Origin: Defluviicoccus sp.
GTDB lineage: Bacteria; Pseudomonadota; Alphaproteobacteria; MPNO01
NCBI GenBank assembly: GCA_028820505.1
Contig: JAPPIT010000115.1
Location: forward strand, 1-64,000
Reading direction: 5' to 3'
DNA: 64,000 bases
Shown: one piece after another, positions 49,945-57,935 of the stretch
How the letters are laid out: the number at the start of each line of letters is the position of its first letter
Position numbering within the stretch: position 1 is the first letter of the stretch
Position numbers and translations under genes: made by a program
The notes under the pieces: generated by a model
Database searches by the model: none
What the model was told of the DNA's origin: nothing
Seen by the model: only the letters and a program-made list of their open reading frames with translations

Positions 49945-50673
49945 ATGACCGAGAACCGTCACGACGAGGCGCTGGGGCTCGAAGCCTTCGAATTCCCCCC
50001 GGACCCGGCAAACGACTTCGAATGGGTGCCAGCGACGCCCGAAATCGCGGGCGAGCTTGACCAGCCGCCGGAGGCCGATTGGCGGACCGCCGGCACCACC
50101 CGCCGCGCGTTCCTGCGCGGCGTCGTCTGCTCGGGCGTCGCCGTATCGGCGTCGGCCTACATGTTCACCGTGCAATCGGGCGAGGCGCGCGCAGCGGTGC
50201 GCGGCGTCGAACGGCTGATCTCGCTGAACGTCAACGGCAAGACGCGGCGCGTCGACGTGCCGCCGAACGAGACGCTGGCCCAGACGATCCGCTACAGGCT
50301 CGGCCTGACGGGGACCAAGATCGGCTGCAACCGCGCCGAGTGCGGCGCTTGCACGGTGCTCGCCGACGACACGCCGATCTATTCCTGCTCGACGCTGACC
50401 CATCAGGCGCGGGGGGCGAGAATCACAACCGTCGAAGGCGTTGCCGCGCCGGACGGCACGCTCCATCCGGTGCAGCAGGCCTTCATCGATGAGCTCGGAC
50501 CGCAATGCGGCTTCTGCACGCCGGGCCAGGTGATGGCGGCGGTCGGGCTGCTCAAGAAGAACCCCAAACCCACCGTGGACGAGGCGCGCCGCGCGATGTC
50601 GGGCAATCTCTGTCGATGCGGCGCCTATCCACACTATCTCGCCGGCGTCATGCGCGCGGCTGGGAGGGCGTAG
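49945..50673 (+). CDS. Tat-exported [2Fe-2S] subunit of molybdenum hydroxylase
   Basis: Small iron-sulfur subunit of a xanthine-oxidase family enzyme. An unusually long N-terminal tail of about 50 acidic residues precedes the twin-arginine signal TTRRAFLRGVV (Arg53, Arg54) and a hydrophobic stretch, so the holoenzyme is probably exported folded. The ferredoxin-like cluster is bound by Cys128, 133, 136 and 148 (GCNRAECGACTVL, YSC) and the second cluster by Cys188, 191, 223 and 225 (CGFCTPGQ, NLCRCGAYPH). The organisation resembles E. coli PaoA (YagT). ATG 49945 has GAGGGAG upstream. It is the first of six + strand genes, with 3 bases before the Mo subunit gene. Confidence 0.93.
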   Translation: MTENRHDEALGLEAFEFPPDPANDFEWVPATPEIAGELDQPPEADWRTAGTTRRAFLRGVVCSGVAVSASAYMFTVQSGEARAAVRGVERLISLNVNGKTRRVDVPPNETLAQTIRYRLGLTGTKIGCNRAECGACTVLADDTPIYSCSTLTHQARGARITTVEGVAAPDGTLHPVQQAFIDELGPQCGFCTPGQVMAAVGLLKKNPKPTVDEARRAMSGNLCRCGAYPHYLAGVMRAAGRA

Positions 50674-50676
50674 ATC

Positions 50677-53091
50677 ATGGCATACACACTTCTCGGCAAG
50701 AACTTCACCCCGCCGGACGTCCGCGCCAAGGTCACCGGCGCCGCGAAGTACTCGGAGGACTTCCGTGCCGACGGCATGGTGTTCCTCAAGACCTTCCCCT
50801 CGCCGATGCCGCACGCGAAGGTCAAGTCGATCGACGTCTCGGCCGCGAAGAAGATGCCCGGCGTCGTGGGCGTCATGCTGCCCAGCGAGATCAAGCAGCC
50901 CAAGGATGCGGGCCACGCGATCCTGACCTCCTACCCGGTGTTCGTCGGCCAGCCGATCCTCGCGGTCGCGGCCGAGACCGAACAGCAGGCGGAAGACGCG
51001 ATCCAGGCGGTCAAGGTCGATTTCGACCCGCTTCCCTTCGTCACCGATCCGCTGGAGAGCCTGCGCCCCGACGGTCCGAACGCCCTTGTCGGCGGCAACG
51101 TCGCCAACCGGCGCGGCGTGAAACTGCAGGAGATCAAGTGGACCGGCAAGGACTTCGCCGAGGCCGGCGACGACAAGCTGCCGATGGGCAAGGCGGCGAC
51201 GGTATGGAGCTTCGGCGACCTCGAAGCCGGCTTCGCCAAGTCCAAGGTCGTGGTCGAGGAGTCCTTCGTCAGCGCGGCCAACGCCCATCACGCGATGGAA
51301 CCGCGCTCGGCGGCAGCCTATTGGGAGGGCGGCAAGTGCCATGTCTGGGGCTCGACCCAGTCCTCGTCCTTCGCCATTCCGAGCCTCGCCAAATACATCG
51401 GAATCAAGCCGACCGACCTGAACCTGGTCAGCGAGTTCTGCGGCGGCGGGTTCGGCGGCAAGGCCTATTCCTACCCGCTGATGGCGCTGCCGGCGCTGAT
51501 GTCGAAGAAGCTCAACGGACGCCCGGTGCTGATGCGGGTGAGCCGCGCCGAGGAGTTCATCAACGGTTCGGCGCGCGCGGCGTTCCAGGGCTGGGTCAAG
51601 ATCGGCTTCGGCGCGGACGGCCGCGTGCTGGCGGTCGACAGCTACATCGTTCAGGACAACGGCTCGACCGCCGGGTTCTGGGACTTCCAGAACTTCGGCA
51701 TGGCCACGTCGGTGATCCTGCAGCCGGAGGCCATGCGGTTCCATGGCATCCCGGTGCTCACCAACACCCCGCCCAAGGGGGCGCAGCGCGGCCCGGGCGA
51801 GAACCAGACGGCCAACATCCTCGAGCCGCTCCTCGACAAGGGCGCGCGCGAGCTCGGCATCGACCGACTGGCGCTCCGCCTCGTCAACGCGCCGGGCGGC
51901 GGGCCGAACGGCAAGATCGGGCCCAAGCAGGCGCCGCTCACCAGCGCCTATCTGAAGGAGGGGCTGGAACAGGCCGCCGCCAAGTGGGGCTATGCCGAGA
52001 AGATCAAGCAGACCGGCAAGCAGGCCAACGGCAAGATCCGCTCAGTCGGCATCGGCCAGGCCTATCACGCGGCCGGCTACAACGGCTTCGACGGCATGGT
52101 GCGGATCACGCCGGACGGCAAGCTCCACATCCACACCGGCGTCGGCAATCTCGGCACCTATTCCTACGCCGCGACCTCCCGCGTTTCCGCCGAAGTGCTC
52201 GGCTATGACTGGAACAACACGGTCATCGAGCGCGGCGGCACGCTGAAGGCGATGCCGTTCAATATCGGCCAGTTCGGCTCCAACACCTCGTTCACCATGA
52301 CCCGGACCAACTACGCCGGGGCGATGGACGCCAAGCAGAAGCTGCTGGAGATCGGCGCGGCGATGCTGGGCGGCAAGGCCGACGACTACGAGCTCAAGAA
52401 CGAGCGGGTGGTGGCGAAGAGCGGCTCGGGGTCGATCAGCTTCGCCGACGCGGCGAAGAAGGCGATCGAGCTCGGCGGCAAGTATTCCGGCCACGAGGTC
52501 GACGAGAAACTCAACCCGCTGACCAAGGCGGCGGTCGGCATGATCAAGGGCACCGGCCTGATCGGCGTCGCCAAGGACAAGCTGCCCAAGAAGGGGGTCG
52601 TTCCGGCGCTTTCCGCAGCGTTCATCGTGATCGAGCTCGATCCGGAAACCGGCAAGGTCGACATCCTCGACTTCATGGGTGTCGCCGATGTCGGCCAGGT
52701 GCTGCATCCGCAGGGGCTCGATGCCCAGATCCGCGGTGGCGCGGTGATGGGGATCGGCCTGGCGGCGATGGAGCGCTACATCTACGACCCGGCCTATGCG
52801 CGGCCCAACGCGATCGGGTTCTACCAGGCCAAGCCGCCGACCTATCTCGACGTGCCGGCGGAGTTGGCCTCGCTCGCCGTCGAAGGGGCGGTGGACGAGC
52901 AGAACCCGGTCGGCGCCAAGGGGATCGGCGAGCCGGTCCAGGGCTCGGCGTCGTCGGCCTATCTGAGCGCGGTCTCGGATGCGCTGGGCGGCCACATGTT
53001 CAACCGGGTCCCGGTGGTCGCGGACATGATCGTGAACGTGGTCGCGAAACAGCCGCAATCCTACAAGCCGTTGCAGGTCAACAACCAGTGA
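50677..53091 (+). CDS. Molybdopterin-binding catalytic subunit of molybdenum hydroxylase
   Basis: Large subunit (804 aa) of the xanthine oxidase family that binds the Mo-pterin cofactor. Seen: the N-terminal a/b hammerhead (VRAKVTGAAKYSEDF), CGGGFGGKAYSYPL, the cofactor region GAQRGPGENQTANILEP, GVGNLGTYSYA and the C-terminal GAKGIGEPVQGSASSAY, in which Glu is the catalytic base. It has no signal of its own and presumably leaves the cell bound to the Tat-tagged small subunit. It carries neither the CoxL active-site loop AYRCSFR nor an obvious xanthine dehydrogenase pattern, so the substrate, likely an aldehyde or N-heterocycle, is open. Confidence 0.92.
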   Translation: MAYTLLGKNFTPPDVRAKVTGAAKYSEDFRADGMVFLKTFPSPMPHAKVKSIDVSAAKKMPGVVGVMLPSEIKQPKDAGHAILTSYPVFVGQPILAVAAETEQQAEDAIQAVKVDFDPLPFVTDPLESLRPDGPNALVGGNVANRRGVKLQEIKWTGKDFAEAGDDKLPMGKAATVWSFGDLEAGFAKSKVVVEESFVSAANAHHAMEPRSAAAYWEGGKCHVWGSTQSSSFAIPSLAKYIGIKPTDLNLVSEFCGGGFGGKAYSYPLMALPALMSKKLNGRPVLMRVSRAEEFINGSARAAFQGWVKIGFGADGRVLAVDSYIVQDNGSTAGFWDFQNFGMATSVILQPEAMRFHGIPVLTNTPPKGAQRGPGENQTANILEPLLDKGARELGIDRLALRLVNAPGGGPNGKIGPKQAPLTSAYLKEGLEQAAAKWGYAEKIKQTGKQANGKIRSVGIGQAYHAAGYNGFDGMVRITPDGKLHIHTGVGNLGTYSYAATSRVSAEVLGYDWNNTVIERGGTLKAMPFNIGQFGSNTSFTMTRTNYAGAMDAKQKLLEIGAAMLGGKADDYELKNERVVAKSGSGSISFADAAKKAIELGGKYSGHEVDEKLNPLTKAAVGMIKGTGLIGVAKDKLPKKGVVPALSAAFIVIELDPETGKVDILDFMGVADVGQVLHPQGLDAQIRGGAVMGIGLAAMERYIYDPAYARPNAIGFYQAKPPTYLDVPAELASLAVEGAVDEQNPVGAKGIGEPVQGSASSAYLSAVSDALGGHMFNRVPVVADMIVNVVAKQPQSYKPLQVNNQ

Positions 53092-53113
53092 CGGGCGGAA
53101 CGGAGGCAGACCA

Positions 53114-54103
53114 ATGACCGACTATATGCACGCATTCGACCTCTACACGCCCGCGAGTCTGGCGGACGCGGCGAAACTGCTCGACGAGCACGGCAAGGAC
53201 GCCTGGATCGTCGCCGGCGGCAAGGACAGCTTCGACTGGTTCAAGGACCGGCACAAGCAGCCCAAGGCGGTGGTCGACGTCAGCGGGCTCAAGGAGCTCC
53301 GCGGCATCCGCGACGGGGGCGATCACGTCTCGATCGGCGCGGCGACCACGCTGACCGAGATCGAGGAGAGCAAGCTGCTGCGGGACAATTTCCCGTTGCT
53401 GGTGCAGGCCGCCGCCAAGGTGGCGAGCCCGCAGATCCGCAATTCGGGCACCATCGGCGGCAACGTTTCGCAGGACACGCGCTGCACCTATTACCGGGAC
53501 GGGTTCCCTTGCTATCGCGCCGGCGGCAACAGCTGCTACGCCAACACGCCGACGGCGATGAACCGGGAGCATGCGCTGTTCGAGGCGGTGCGCTGCGTTG
53601 CGGTGACGCCGTCCGATACGGCGCCGGCGCTGGTCGCGCTGGAGGCCGAGATGGCGATCTCGCGCGGCGGCAAGGTGCGGACGGTATCGGCGGAGAAGTT
53701 CTTCATCGGGCCGGACGTCGACATCACGCGGATGACGGTGCTGGAGGCGGGCGACATCCTCACCGAGATCCGCCTTCCGAAGAAGTGGGCCGGGGCCAGC
53801 TCCTATTTCGAGAAGGTCGCCGACCGCGAGACCTGGGACTTCGCCCTGGTCAGCATCGCCATGGCGGCCAGAACCGAGGGCGGCATGGTGAAGGACGTGC
53901 GCGTCGCCTGCGGCGGCGTGCAGTGCACCCCGAGGCGGCTGACCGAGGTTGAGGATCTGATGAAGGGGGAGAAGGCGGGGCCCGAGCTCGAAAAGCTCGC
54001 CAGGCGGGTCGCGGCGCGGGGCGCCAAGGCGCTCAACTTCAACCACTTCAAGATTCCGCTGATGGGCAACCTCGCCGCCCGCGCGGCCAGATCGCTCGCC
54101 TGA
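53114..54103 (+). CDS. FAD-binding subunit with [4Fe-4S] insert
   Basis: Medium subunit (329 aa) of the same enzyme. The FAD domain shows WIVAGGKDSFDWF and SPQIRNSGTIGGNVSQDTR; directly after it Cys124, 133, 141 and 161 occur in CTYYRDGFPCYRAGGNSCYA and RCVAV. The same Cys pattern binds a [4Fe-4S] cluster in the PaoB (YagS) subunit of E. coli aldehyde oxidase and, in another form, in 4-hydroxybenzoyl-CoA reductase; most CoxM-type subunits lack it. The C-terminal domain (TRMTVLEAGDILTEIRLP) is normal. It starts 22 bases after the Mo subunit gene. Confidence 0.92.
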   Translation: MTDYMHAFDLYTPASLADAAKLLDEHGKDAWIVAGGKDSFDWFKDRHKQPKAVVDVSGLKELRGIRDGGDHVSIGAATTLTEIEESKLLRDNFPLLVQAAAKVASPQIRNSGTIGGNVSQDTRCTYYRDGFPCYRAGGNSCYANTPTAMNREHALFEAVRCVAVTPSDTAPALVALEAEMAISRGGKVRTVSAEKFFIGPDVDITRMTVLEAGDILTEIRLPKKWAGASSYFEKVADRETWDFALVSIAMAARTEGGMVKDVRVACGGVQCTPRRLTEVEDLMKGEKAGPELEKLARRVAARGAKALNFNHFKIPLMGNLAARAARSLA

Positions 54104-55302: not shown

Positions 55303-55306
55303 CGGC

Positions 55307-55682
<376 letters not shown>

Positions 55683-55714: not shown

Positions 55715-56401
55715 TCAATCCGGATCGCGCGCGACCGCGCCGATCCGCGCCATGGTCCCGGGGTCGAGCCTCCCGTCGCAACGGGACGGGAGAAAGCGTC
55801 TCTGGAACGCCGCGAGCACGGCGGCGAAGCCTTCCGCGTCCTCGCAGAACCCGTAGCCGATGCGGGCGAGCGCCGCGCGCGCGCGGTCCGCGTCGGGCTC
55901 CGCGGAGTCCTCCCCCCCGCCGGGCCAGTATGCGAGCCCCTTCGCGGCGAGCCGCCGCCACGGGAAGAGCTCCCCCGGGTCCCGCTTGCGCAGCGGCGCC
56001 ACGTCCGAATGTCCCACCACGCGGGCGGGATCGATGCGCCGTCGTTCGCAGATGTCGCCGAGCAATCGCTCGAGCGCGTCGAGCTGGGCTTCGGGAAACG
56101 GGACATAGCCGAACTCGTGCCCGGGATTGGCGAGCTCGATCCCGATCGACCGGCCGTTGACGTCCGCGTCGCCGGCCCAGGAGGCAACGCCGGCGTGCCA
56201 CGCGCGCCGCCCCTCGTCGACGAGACGATAGACCGCGCCCGCCTCGTCGATCAGGTAGTGCGCGCTCACCCCGGAGGCTGGATCGCACAGACGCGCGAGC
56301 GCTGTCTCCGCGGCGGGCATGCCGGTGTAGTGGAGGACGACGAGGTCGACGGGCATGCCGGCCGGCCGCATGCCGTGGTTGGGCGACGGCCGCTCGATCA
56401 C
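55715..56401 (-). CDS. AmpD-type N-acetylmuramoyl-L-alanine amidase
   Basis: Amidase_2 domain protein that splits the bond between MurNAc and L-Ala, used in recycling of peptidoglycan. Zn ligands and active site: VLHYTGMP (first His), IGIELANPG (Glu), VGHSDVAPLRKRDPGELFPW (second His and the Asp/Lys pair). The C-terminal 70 residues form a small helical peptidoglycan-binding-like part (FAAVLAAFQRRFLP). I prefer GTG 56401 (VIERPSPNHGMRP), the standard beginning of this group; the track ATG 56461 and a later ATG are alternatives. No signal peptide, so cytoplasmic. It lies just upstream of rnpB. Confidence 0.9.
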   Translation of the reverse strand: MIERPSPNHGMRPAGMPVDLVVLHYTGMPAAETALARLCDPASGVSAHYLIDEAGAVYRLVDEGRRAWHAGVASWAGDADVNGRSIGIELANPGHEFGYVPFPEAQLDALERLLGDICERRRIDPARVVGHSDVAPLRKRDPGELFPWRRLAAKGLAYWPGGGEDSAEPDADRARAALARIGYGFCEDAEGFAAVLAAFQRRFLPSRCDGRLDPGTMARIGAVARDPD

Positions 56402-56495: not shown

Positions 56496-56714
56496 TCAGG
56501 CGGCGCTGCGGCGCGGTGCCGCGTCGCGCCGGCTCTCGGGCTCGCGATAGGCCATCTTCACGTGGGCGGCGCAATAGGAGAAGCCTTCCGAGGTCTTCCG
56601 GCCGCAGAAGTGAAACTCCTCCGTACCGGGCTCGCCGTAAGGCCACTGGCACGTCCGGTACGGGGACGTCTTGCTCACCCTCAACAGTGAGACGAGTTCG
56701 GATCGGTCCGACAT
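56496..56714 (-). CDS. Short GcrA-family protein, C-terminal sigma-interacting region only
   Basis: A 72-aa protein whose core, CQWPYGEPGTEEFHFCGRK followed by GFSYCAAHVKMAY, corresponds to the Cys-rich C terminus of GcrA, a cell cycle regulator that works with CcrM methylation and binds sigma70 through this region. The DNA-binding N-terminal half of GcrA (WTDERVELLKKLW type) is missing. Cys22, Cys37, Cys48 and His51 could bind a metal. ATG 56714 fits a promoter 31 bases upstream; the track start at 56807 lies before that promoter. The gene is alone between the ABC operon and ampD. It might modulate sigma70 without binding DNA. Confidence 0.75.
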   Translation of the reverse strand: MSDRSELVSLLRVSKTSPYRTCQWPYGEPGTEEFHFCGRKTSEGFSYCAAHVKMAYREPESRRDAAPRRSAA

Positions 56715-56744
56715 TCTTGCGTGTCCTAAGATTGGAACGCGCGA

Positions 56745-56773
56745 TAGATATGGTCGGCACTTCCCAACGTCAA
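56745..56773 (-). promoter_or_regulatory. Candidate promoter of the short GcrA-family gene
   Basis: TTGACG (56773-56768) and TATCTA (56750-56745) on the - strand are 17 bases apart and would start transcription about 24 bases before ATG 56714. The same gap holds a 14-bp palindrome (56836-56849) close behind the ABC ATPase gene. Confidence 0.5.
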
Positions 56774-56852
56774 GATTCGCGGCGCCAATACTGGCGGCCT
56801 GCGTCAATTTGTTGCATTTGGCGCAGGCAAACCCGCGCGGCCGGCCGCGATG

Positions 56853-57935
56853 TCAATTGAGGCGGGCGCCATCTCCGGCATCGAACAGATGCAAATTGGC
56901 GGTGTCCAGCGCCACGTGGATCGCATCGCCGGCGGCGACCGGAAGGTCCGGATCGACCTTGGCCACCATGCGACGCGCGCCGCCATGGTCGAAGAACAGC
57001 AACGTGGTGTCGCCGAGCGGCTCGATCAGGCTGACCGTCGCGGGCGTCGCACCCTCCGTGTCGGCATCGACGACCAGCACGTGTTCCGAGCGCACGCCGA
57101 GCACCGCGCCGCGCCCGGCGAGGCCGGCGTCGACCGACGCGTCGAGCGGGACGGCGAGGCCGGTGCCGCGAAACTCGATCGCGCCCGCCGCCGCCTCGAC
57201 GGTGCCGTCGAGGAAGTTCATCGTCGGGATCCCGAAGAAGCCGGCGACGAAATGCGACGCGGGGCGCCGGTAGATTTCGAGCGGTTCGCCGACCTGCTCG
57301 ATGCGGCCGTCATTCATCACCGCGATCCGGTCGGCCATGGTCATCGCCTCGGCCTGGTCGTGGGTGACGTAGACGAAAGTGCCGCCGAGCTGCTCGTGCA
57401 GGTGCTTGAGCTCGGTGCGCATGTCGACGCGCAGCTTGGCGTCGAGGCTGGAGAGCGGCTCGTCCATCAGGTAGACGGACGGGTTTGTGACGATGGTGCG
57501 CGCGAGCGCAACGCGCTGCGCCTCGCCGCCGGAGCACTCGCCGGGCCGCTTGTCGAGCAGCGGGGCGATGTGCATCGCCTCGGCGGCCTCCTCCACGCGG
57601 CGCCGGATCTCCCCGGGATCGACGTGCTTGACCCGGAGGCCGAAGGCGATGTTGTCGAACACCGTCATGTGGGGGAACAGCGCGAGATCCTGGAACACCA
57701 TGCCGAGCCCGCGCTCGCCGGCCTCGGTATGGGTGACGACGCGGTCGCCGATCACGACGTCGCCGCCGGTCGGCTCGACGAGCCCGGAGATCATGTTGAG
57801 CGTCGTCGTCTTGCCGCAGCCCGACGGGCCGACCAGGATCAGGAACTCGCCGTCGCGGATTTCCAGGTTGATTCCCTTGACGGCGGCGAAGCTGCCGAAC
57901 TCCTTGACCAGATCCTTGAGCACGATACCCGCCAC
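56853..57935 (-). CDS. ABC transporter ATP-binding protein, MalK/UgpC type
   Basis: A 360-aa ATPase of the CUT1 carbohydrate-type importers. Walker A VGPSGCGKTTTLN, Q-loop MVFQDLALFPHMTV, signature CSGGEAQRVALAR (Cys replacing Leu in LSGGQ), Walker B VYLMDEPLSSLD and switch His in YVTHDQAEAM. The C-terminal TOBE/MalK regulatory domain starts at about 235 (FFGIPTMNFLDGTV). It is the last gene of the SBP-permease-permease-ATPase operon, 27 bases after the permease gene. The substrate may be a sugar, polyol or glycerol phosphate; this cannot be decided here. Confidence 0.94.
   Translation of the reverse strand: MAGIVLKDLVKEFGSFAAVKGINLEIRDGEFLILVGPSGCGKTTTLNMISGLVEPTGGDVVIGDRVVTHTEAGERGLGMVFQDLALFPHMTVFDNIAFGLRVKHVDPGEIRRRVEEAAEAMHIAPLLDKRPGECSGGEAQRVALARTIVTNPSVYLMDEPLSSLDAKLRVDMRTELKHLHEQLGGTFVYVTHDQAEAMTMADRIAVMNDGRIEQVGEPLEIYRRPASHFVAGFFGIPTMNFLDGTVEAAAGAIEFRGTGLAVPLDASVDAGLAGRGAVLGVRSEHVLVVDADTEGATPATVSLIEPLGDTTLLFFDHGGARRMVAKVDPDLPVAAGDAIHVALDTANLHLFDAGDGARLN

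Follow-up and report, generated by a model that had tools for sequence, protein, structure and literature searches.

GcrA has two domains, through which it connects sigma70 and DNA methylation with the cell cycle of alphaproteobacteria. The window analyzed here, a 64,000-nucleotide stretch from a Defluviicoccus sp. genome, contains a 72-aa open reading frame (MSDRSELVSLLRVSKTSPYRTCQWPYGEPGTEEFHFCGRKTSEGFSYCAAHVKMAYREPESRRDAAPRRSAA; Table 1) that resembles only one of these, the C-terminal sigma-interacting domain (SID). This raises the question of whether the frame is a genuine gene, and what such a domain would do without its DNA-binding half.

A conserved gene for a stand-alone GcrA domain

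A sequence-only reading of the locus had described a stand-alone GcrA C-terminal domain with a cysteine-rich core, from which the DNA-binding half was missing, and profile searches agreed on both points. The Pfam GcrA profile (PF07750) matched the protein with an E-value of 4.8e-17 (63.2 bits, cut-off 26.9) at positions 98–153 of 155 only, which is the C-terminal third of the profile, and the NCBIfam GcrA equivalog matched at positions 114–156 of 173 with 47.6 bits, far under its full-length cut-off of 280. The core, as seen in orthologue alignments of 8 and of 13 sequences, carries three cysteines and one histidine (C22, C37, C48, and H51), with CE replacing CG in one member from family f133. 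A short N-terminal segment, kept within each lineage in the alignment of short forms, occupies the place of the GcrA HTH and linker.

The protein is predicted to adopt the SID fold. An AlphaFold2 model based on a 13-row alignment reached a pLDDT of ~80 in the core, with a mean of 66, which is a low overall confidence. Its best Foldseek match in the PDB was 5yix_B, the C. crescentus GcrA SID bound to sigma70 domain 2 (probability 1.00, rmsd 1.5 over 37 columns, 46% identity, E 5e-3), followed by 7ye1_G and 7ye2_G, also with a probability of 1.00, although the E-values of the three were only 5e-3 to 2e-2. In GcrA, residues 108–173 form the SID, which binds sigma region 2 (PMC7403470, a review).

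A frameshift or an assembly error might have hidden an N-terminal HTH, but none was found. Searching up to 1.5 kb of DNA 5′ of 14 short genes with four GcrA DNA-binding domains (tblastn) gave a best E-value of 0.1, with 3e-29 for the positive control, and the ABC importer gene upstream ends at 56853; a hidden HTH or frameshift was therefore rejected. An assembly error is excluded because the same architecture occurs in five assemblies of the genus. The protein thus matches the family profile and, in its predicted structure, the C-terminal SID fold, while lacking the N-terminal HTH. As the HTH is absent from both the short ORF and, in every reading frame, the upstream DNA, we classed the protein as a SID-only paralogue rather than as a GcrA orthologue.

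Table 1. Features at the short-gene locus (window coordinates).
Feature	Position	Strand	Remarks
SID-only GcrA paralogue, 72 aa	56496..56714	(-)	ATG start; stop codon at 56496-56498
Short N-terminal segment, residues 1-14	56673..56714	(-)	AlphaFold2: predicted helix 4-13, low confidence
Conserved core CQWPxGxP...F..CG..T...YC..H, residues 22-51	56562..56651	(-)	invariant alignment columns
C-terminal tail, residues 64-72	56499..56525	(-)	AlphaFold2: predicted disordered
Shine-Dalgarno-like AGGA	56724..56727	(-)	from sequence and upstream alignment
Invariant block CATATCTATCGCGCGTTCCA	56733..56752	(-)	unchanged in all five genomes of the genus
-10-like TATCTA	56745-56750	(-)	inside the CATATCTATCGCGCGTTCCA block
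-35-like TTGACG	56768..56773	(-)	TTGAC in 5/5 genomes
GANTC site (GAATC)	56774..56778	(-)	directly next to the -35-like element; present in three of the five genomes
Downstream neighbour: N-acetylmuramoyl-L-alanine amidase (PF01510)	55718..56398	(-)	neighbour within the genus only
Upstream neighbour: ABC importer ATPase	56853..57935	(-)	ends 138 bp before the short-gene start

The same frame, with the same start, was present in all five genomes of the genus, which are Defluviicoccus-like MAGs, at 86–99% protein identity; judging from isolate names, some of these MAGs may be sponge-derived. Divergent pairs had a dN/dS of ~0.05–0.1, with dN at ~0.05 and dS at ~0.6–0.9 between two sub-groups of the genus, and the short gene is under purifying selection.

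As far as each contig retains them, the flanking genes are also the same across the five genomes, with the ABC importer upstream, and the amidase and RNase P RNA downstream. The neighbours of the short gene differ in each lineage that carries it, however, and so provide no functional context; a conserved operon partner was rejected on the same grounds. Elsewhere in the window, a class A RNase P RNA gene (280 bits) lies downstream of the amidase gene at 55304-55681 (-), and three consecutive xanthine-dehydrogenase-type molybdenum hydroxylase genes were recognized by eye at 49945-54103 (+).

Distribution and origin of the short forms

The sequence-only reading had also suggested a survey of short GcrA-family proteins and their neighbours, which recovered SID-only proteins of 69–81 aa in four lineages. 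Besides the genus of the window, they occurred with 69 aa in family f3, which belongs to the same order (L074-L077), and with 73–81 aa in f78, a family of another order, where genus g216 had intact copies in five of eight genomes and one further partial match (L078-L081, L119-L123). The fourth lineage was family f133, where proteins of 73–74 aa were found in 49 of 60 sampled genomes, counting match rows with E below 1e-29. Most of these 49 genomes also encoded a GcrA of ~160 aa; the genomes whose loci we saw are small, at ~0.9–1.6 Mb and 24–28% GC. No other clear SID-only frame was present among the matches listed for class-wide samples of about 385 genomes each, and an 83-aa frame in one genome (G407) retains part of the HTH. 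Scanning genome contigs with the single 72-aa protein as the query returned no match, whereas an alignment query did detect the relatives. The short gene is limited to neither this genome nor its genus.

The reading had further advised looking for a full-length gcrA, and one is present: in this genome of 5.49 Mb and 228 contigs, a single GcrA of 120 aa is encoded apart from the short gene, on contig C97. The DNA-binding half of this GcrA is of the typical kind, with 61.7 bits to 5yiu. In similarity to the C. crescentus SID (5yix_B), however, the short protein scored 44.7 bits and the resident GcrA only 23.8 bits. All sampled resident GcrAs of the order share this diverged SID, with a branch length of 2.0; its pattern among them is CRWxxxxPGRxGLxICGKTxQPGRxxCAEH (L001, L029-L051).

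A tree was built from 72 SID sequences and 51 columns, and so has limited resolution. In this tree, the short forms of the window genus, f3, and f78 formed one clade (support 100/99), nested among ordinary full-length SIDs and apart from the resident GcrAs of the order, with a clade branch of 0.76. Those of f133 formed a separate clade; an AU test did not reject a single origin for all four lineages (p 0.35), nor does the tree demonstrate one. Given the position of the clade apart from the resident GcrAs, the short gene did not arise by recent truncation of the local gcrA, an origin that we rejected, and is probably an old paralogue of GcrA. The short forms of the clade carry the signature SP[FY]RTCQW and other invariant residues particular to them. 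A full-length-type GcrA relative at L087:3-695 (+), on a very long branch, also has the SPFRTCQW form of this signature. Viral contigs, phages, and plasmids yielded no SID-only relative, so that a phage or plasmid origin found no support.

Promoters and candidate regulators

The short gene had further been credited with its own promoter, placed so that only the short form could be made. The placement stood up: the promoter-like sequence lies inside the TTG-extended frame, and a transcript starting there could make only the short form. The two elements are separated by 17 nt in the window copy (TTGACG to TATCTA), and in the upstream alignment the arrangement TTGAC-18 nt-TATCTATCGCGCGTTCCA is kept in all five genomes of the genus. 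A strict scan for the sigma70 consensus, however, did not call this sequence, and the case for a separate promoter consequently rests on conservation, not on consensus.

The GAATC at the -35-like element, found in three of the five genomes, made CcrM a candidate regulator. However, no RAMA domain of the CcrM type was found in four genomes of the genus rated 100% complete (G000, G001, G003, and G004), although other families of the order have one, as seen in four of four further genomes tested. In the genome of the window itself, three proteins matched PF01555, none of them looking like CcrM and all without its DPPY motif. Allowing for the caution that MAGs require, the genus thus seems to lack the usual GcrA/CcrM methylation circuit, although it keeps its full-length GcrA. 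Control of the window copy by CcrM through GANTC was therefore dismissed, and it cannot be taken for granted that the short protein competes with GcrA at promoters that are methylated in this genus.

A different regulator came into view in the other lineages. In the upstream regions examined in f78, two copies of TGCRNYGCA, or of a version differing in one letter, lay around the likely promoter at a distance of exactly 20 bp. Such tandem boxes were found at two of the four short-gcrA promoters of f3, with one box at the third and none at the fourth. Among 20,000 dinucleotide shuffles, 0 to 13 matched the tandem arrangement. When 13 genomes were scanned with a strict tandem pattern, seven sites were recovered: one at the short gcrA of G012, three at MaoC/PhaJ-like genes, one at a citrate synthase gene, one within a coding sequence, and one close to the end of a contig. 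With the pattern written backward as a control, the same genomes gave no site. The MaoC/PhaJ-like genes preceded by this rare arrangement belong to three f3 genomes, and the citrate synthase gene to one (L113, L114, L116, L117). Boxes also occur near the phasin genes of the same genomes, and PhaR-family genes were found in six of the seven genomes tested. In S. meliloti, the core of the PhaR motif is YGCRNYGCR, and the gltA promoter contains it (PMC12542648).

The palindrome of the PhaR/AniA regulon, known from phasin and gltA promoters, thus also occurs in short-gcrA promoters of f3 and f78, where control by PhaR would be a good inference from these motifs. The window genus, unlike promoters of the regulon, has no such box within 200 bp upstream of the short gene, and PhaR control of the window copy was rejected for this reason. 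As the boxes are likewise absent from the f133 promoters and from one f3 member, and single in another, PhaR control is not general. In the portions of the open-licence literature that were covered, no paper naming both GcrA and PhaR was found.

Putative action on sigma70

From the predicted fold and sequence, we tentatively propose, with a probability of roughly 0.45, that the short protein is a free ligand of sigma70 region 2, docking at the GcrA site and acting as a competitor or dose-setter of GcrA. With no anchor on DNA, the free SID would bind the housekeeping sigma70 where full-length GcrA does, on domain 2, and with this site occupied, GcrA-dependent activation would be reduced or re-tuned. 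It would be made from its own promoter, and each lineage would have its own cue. The PhaR-type boxes of f3 and f78 imply that more of the short protein would be made once storage polymer has drawn PhaR away, while the window genus would rely on a different promoter. An anti-activator of GcrA is thus plausible, its inhibition being putative; sigma70 binding, competition with GcrA, and PhaR control are all steps that we infer. The strong divergence of the resident SID speaks against the competitor role, as the short protein and the resident GcrA may not share one site.

By analogy to Crl or the RbpA SID, the short protein could instead be a DNA-independent sigma70 cofactor, which binds sigma region 2 and stabilizes the holoenzyme or the open complex at many promoters without opposing GcrA. 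We consider this rather unlikely, although it is almost as attractive as a competitor because the short SID departs less from the canonical form than the resident SID does, being the nearer of the two to that of C. crescentus. Sigma region 2 is the route taken by GcrA, Crl, and RbpA alike, and Crl acts without contacting DNA (PMC6917491), while the RbpA SID by itself partly activates (PMC7403470). The near-universal presence of the short gene in f133 would also fit a cofactor. In C. crescentus GcrA, on the other hand, the DNA-binding domain belongs to activation (PMC6917491).

More doubtful still is a re-targeted SID fold, which would bind another sigma factor, another surface of RNA polymerase, or an unrelated partner, helped by the N-terminal segment and SP[FY]RTCQW. 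The long clade-specific branch, the invariant residues specific to short forms, and the conservation of the N-terminal segment within each lineage are consistent with such a change, but the core CxWPxGxP...FxxC...YC..H and the predicted fold are retained. Finally, although half of the known domain architecture is absent, a truncated gcrA remnant near loss, or a mis-called frame, is effectively excluded by the purifying selection, the invariant promoter block, the spread across four lineages, and the separation of the clade from resident gcrA.

Competition with GcrA for sigma70, the reading we prefer, sets the short protein beside several known systems. The C. crescentus cell-cycle regulator GcrA (PF07750; 5YIX, 7YE1, 7YE2) has an HTH at residues 1–45 and a long linker, both of which the short protein lacks, and the short protein is encoded by a gene of its own in a genome that encodes full-length GcrA as well. 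Crl, a sigmaS-specific activator of gammaproteobacteria, is alike in its possible mode of action, as a small protein on sigma region 2 without DNA contact, but it belongs to an unrelated family and targets sigmaS, as has been demonstrated experimentally, whereas sigma binding by the short protein is putative. The RbpA SID of Actinobacteria is similarly a module that binds sigma region 2 and is partly activating alone, but it is also of an unrelated family and usually sits in a larger protein that has a basic linker and a core domain as well. GcrA homologues of phages and plasmids are likewise family genes outside the resident locus, but the annotated proteins that we looked at are longer, with, for example, 203 aa in phage Ssp-JY42 and 173 aa on pSymB. 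No description of a SID-only GcrA paralogue was found in the titles, abstracts, and passages covered of the open-licence literature, which is weak evidence of novelty.

In its broadest and rather speculative form, the stand-alone GcrA SID would be a widespread small sigma70 cofactor or antagonist, controlled in some lineages by PhaR as a sensor of carbon storage, and the storing of polymer would then directly re-tune the sigma70/GcrA cell-cycle transcription program. A natural SID-only paralogue alongside full-length GcrA in several lineages, among them a genus where CcrM was looked for and not found, offers a ready test of the sigma-binding domain alone, and the PhaR-type boxes hint that carbon storage may be linked to the GcrA/sigma70 transcription system in a way not described so far.
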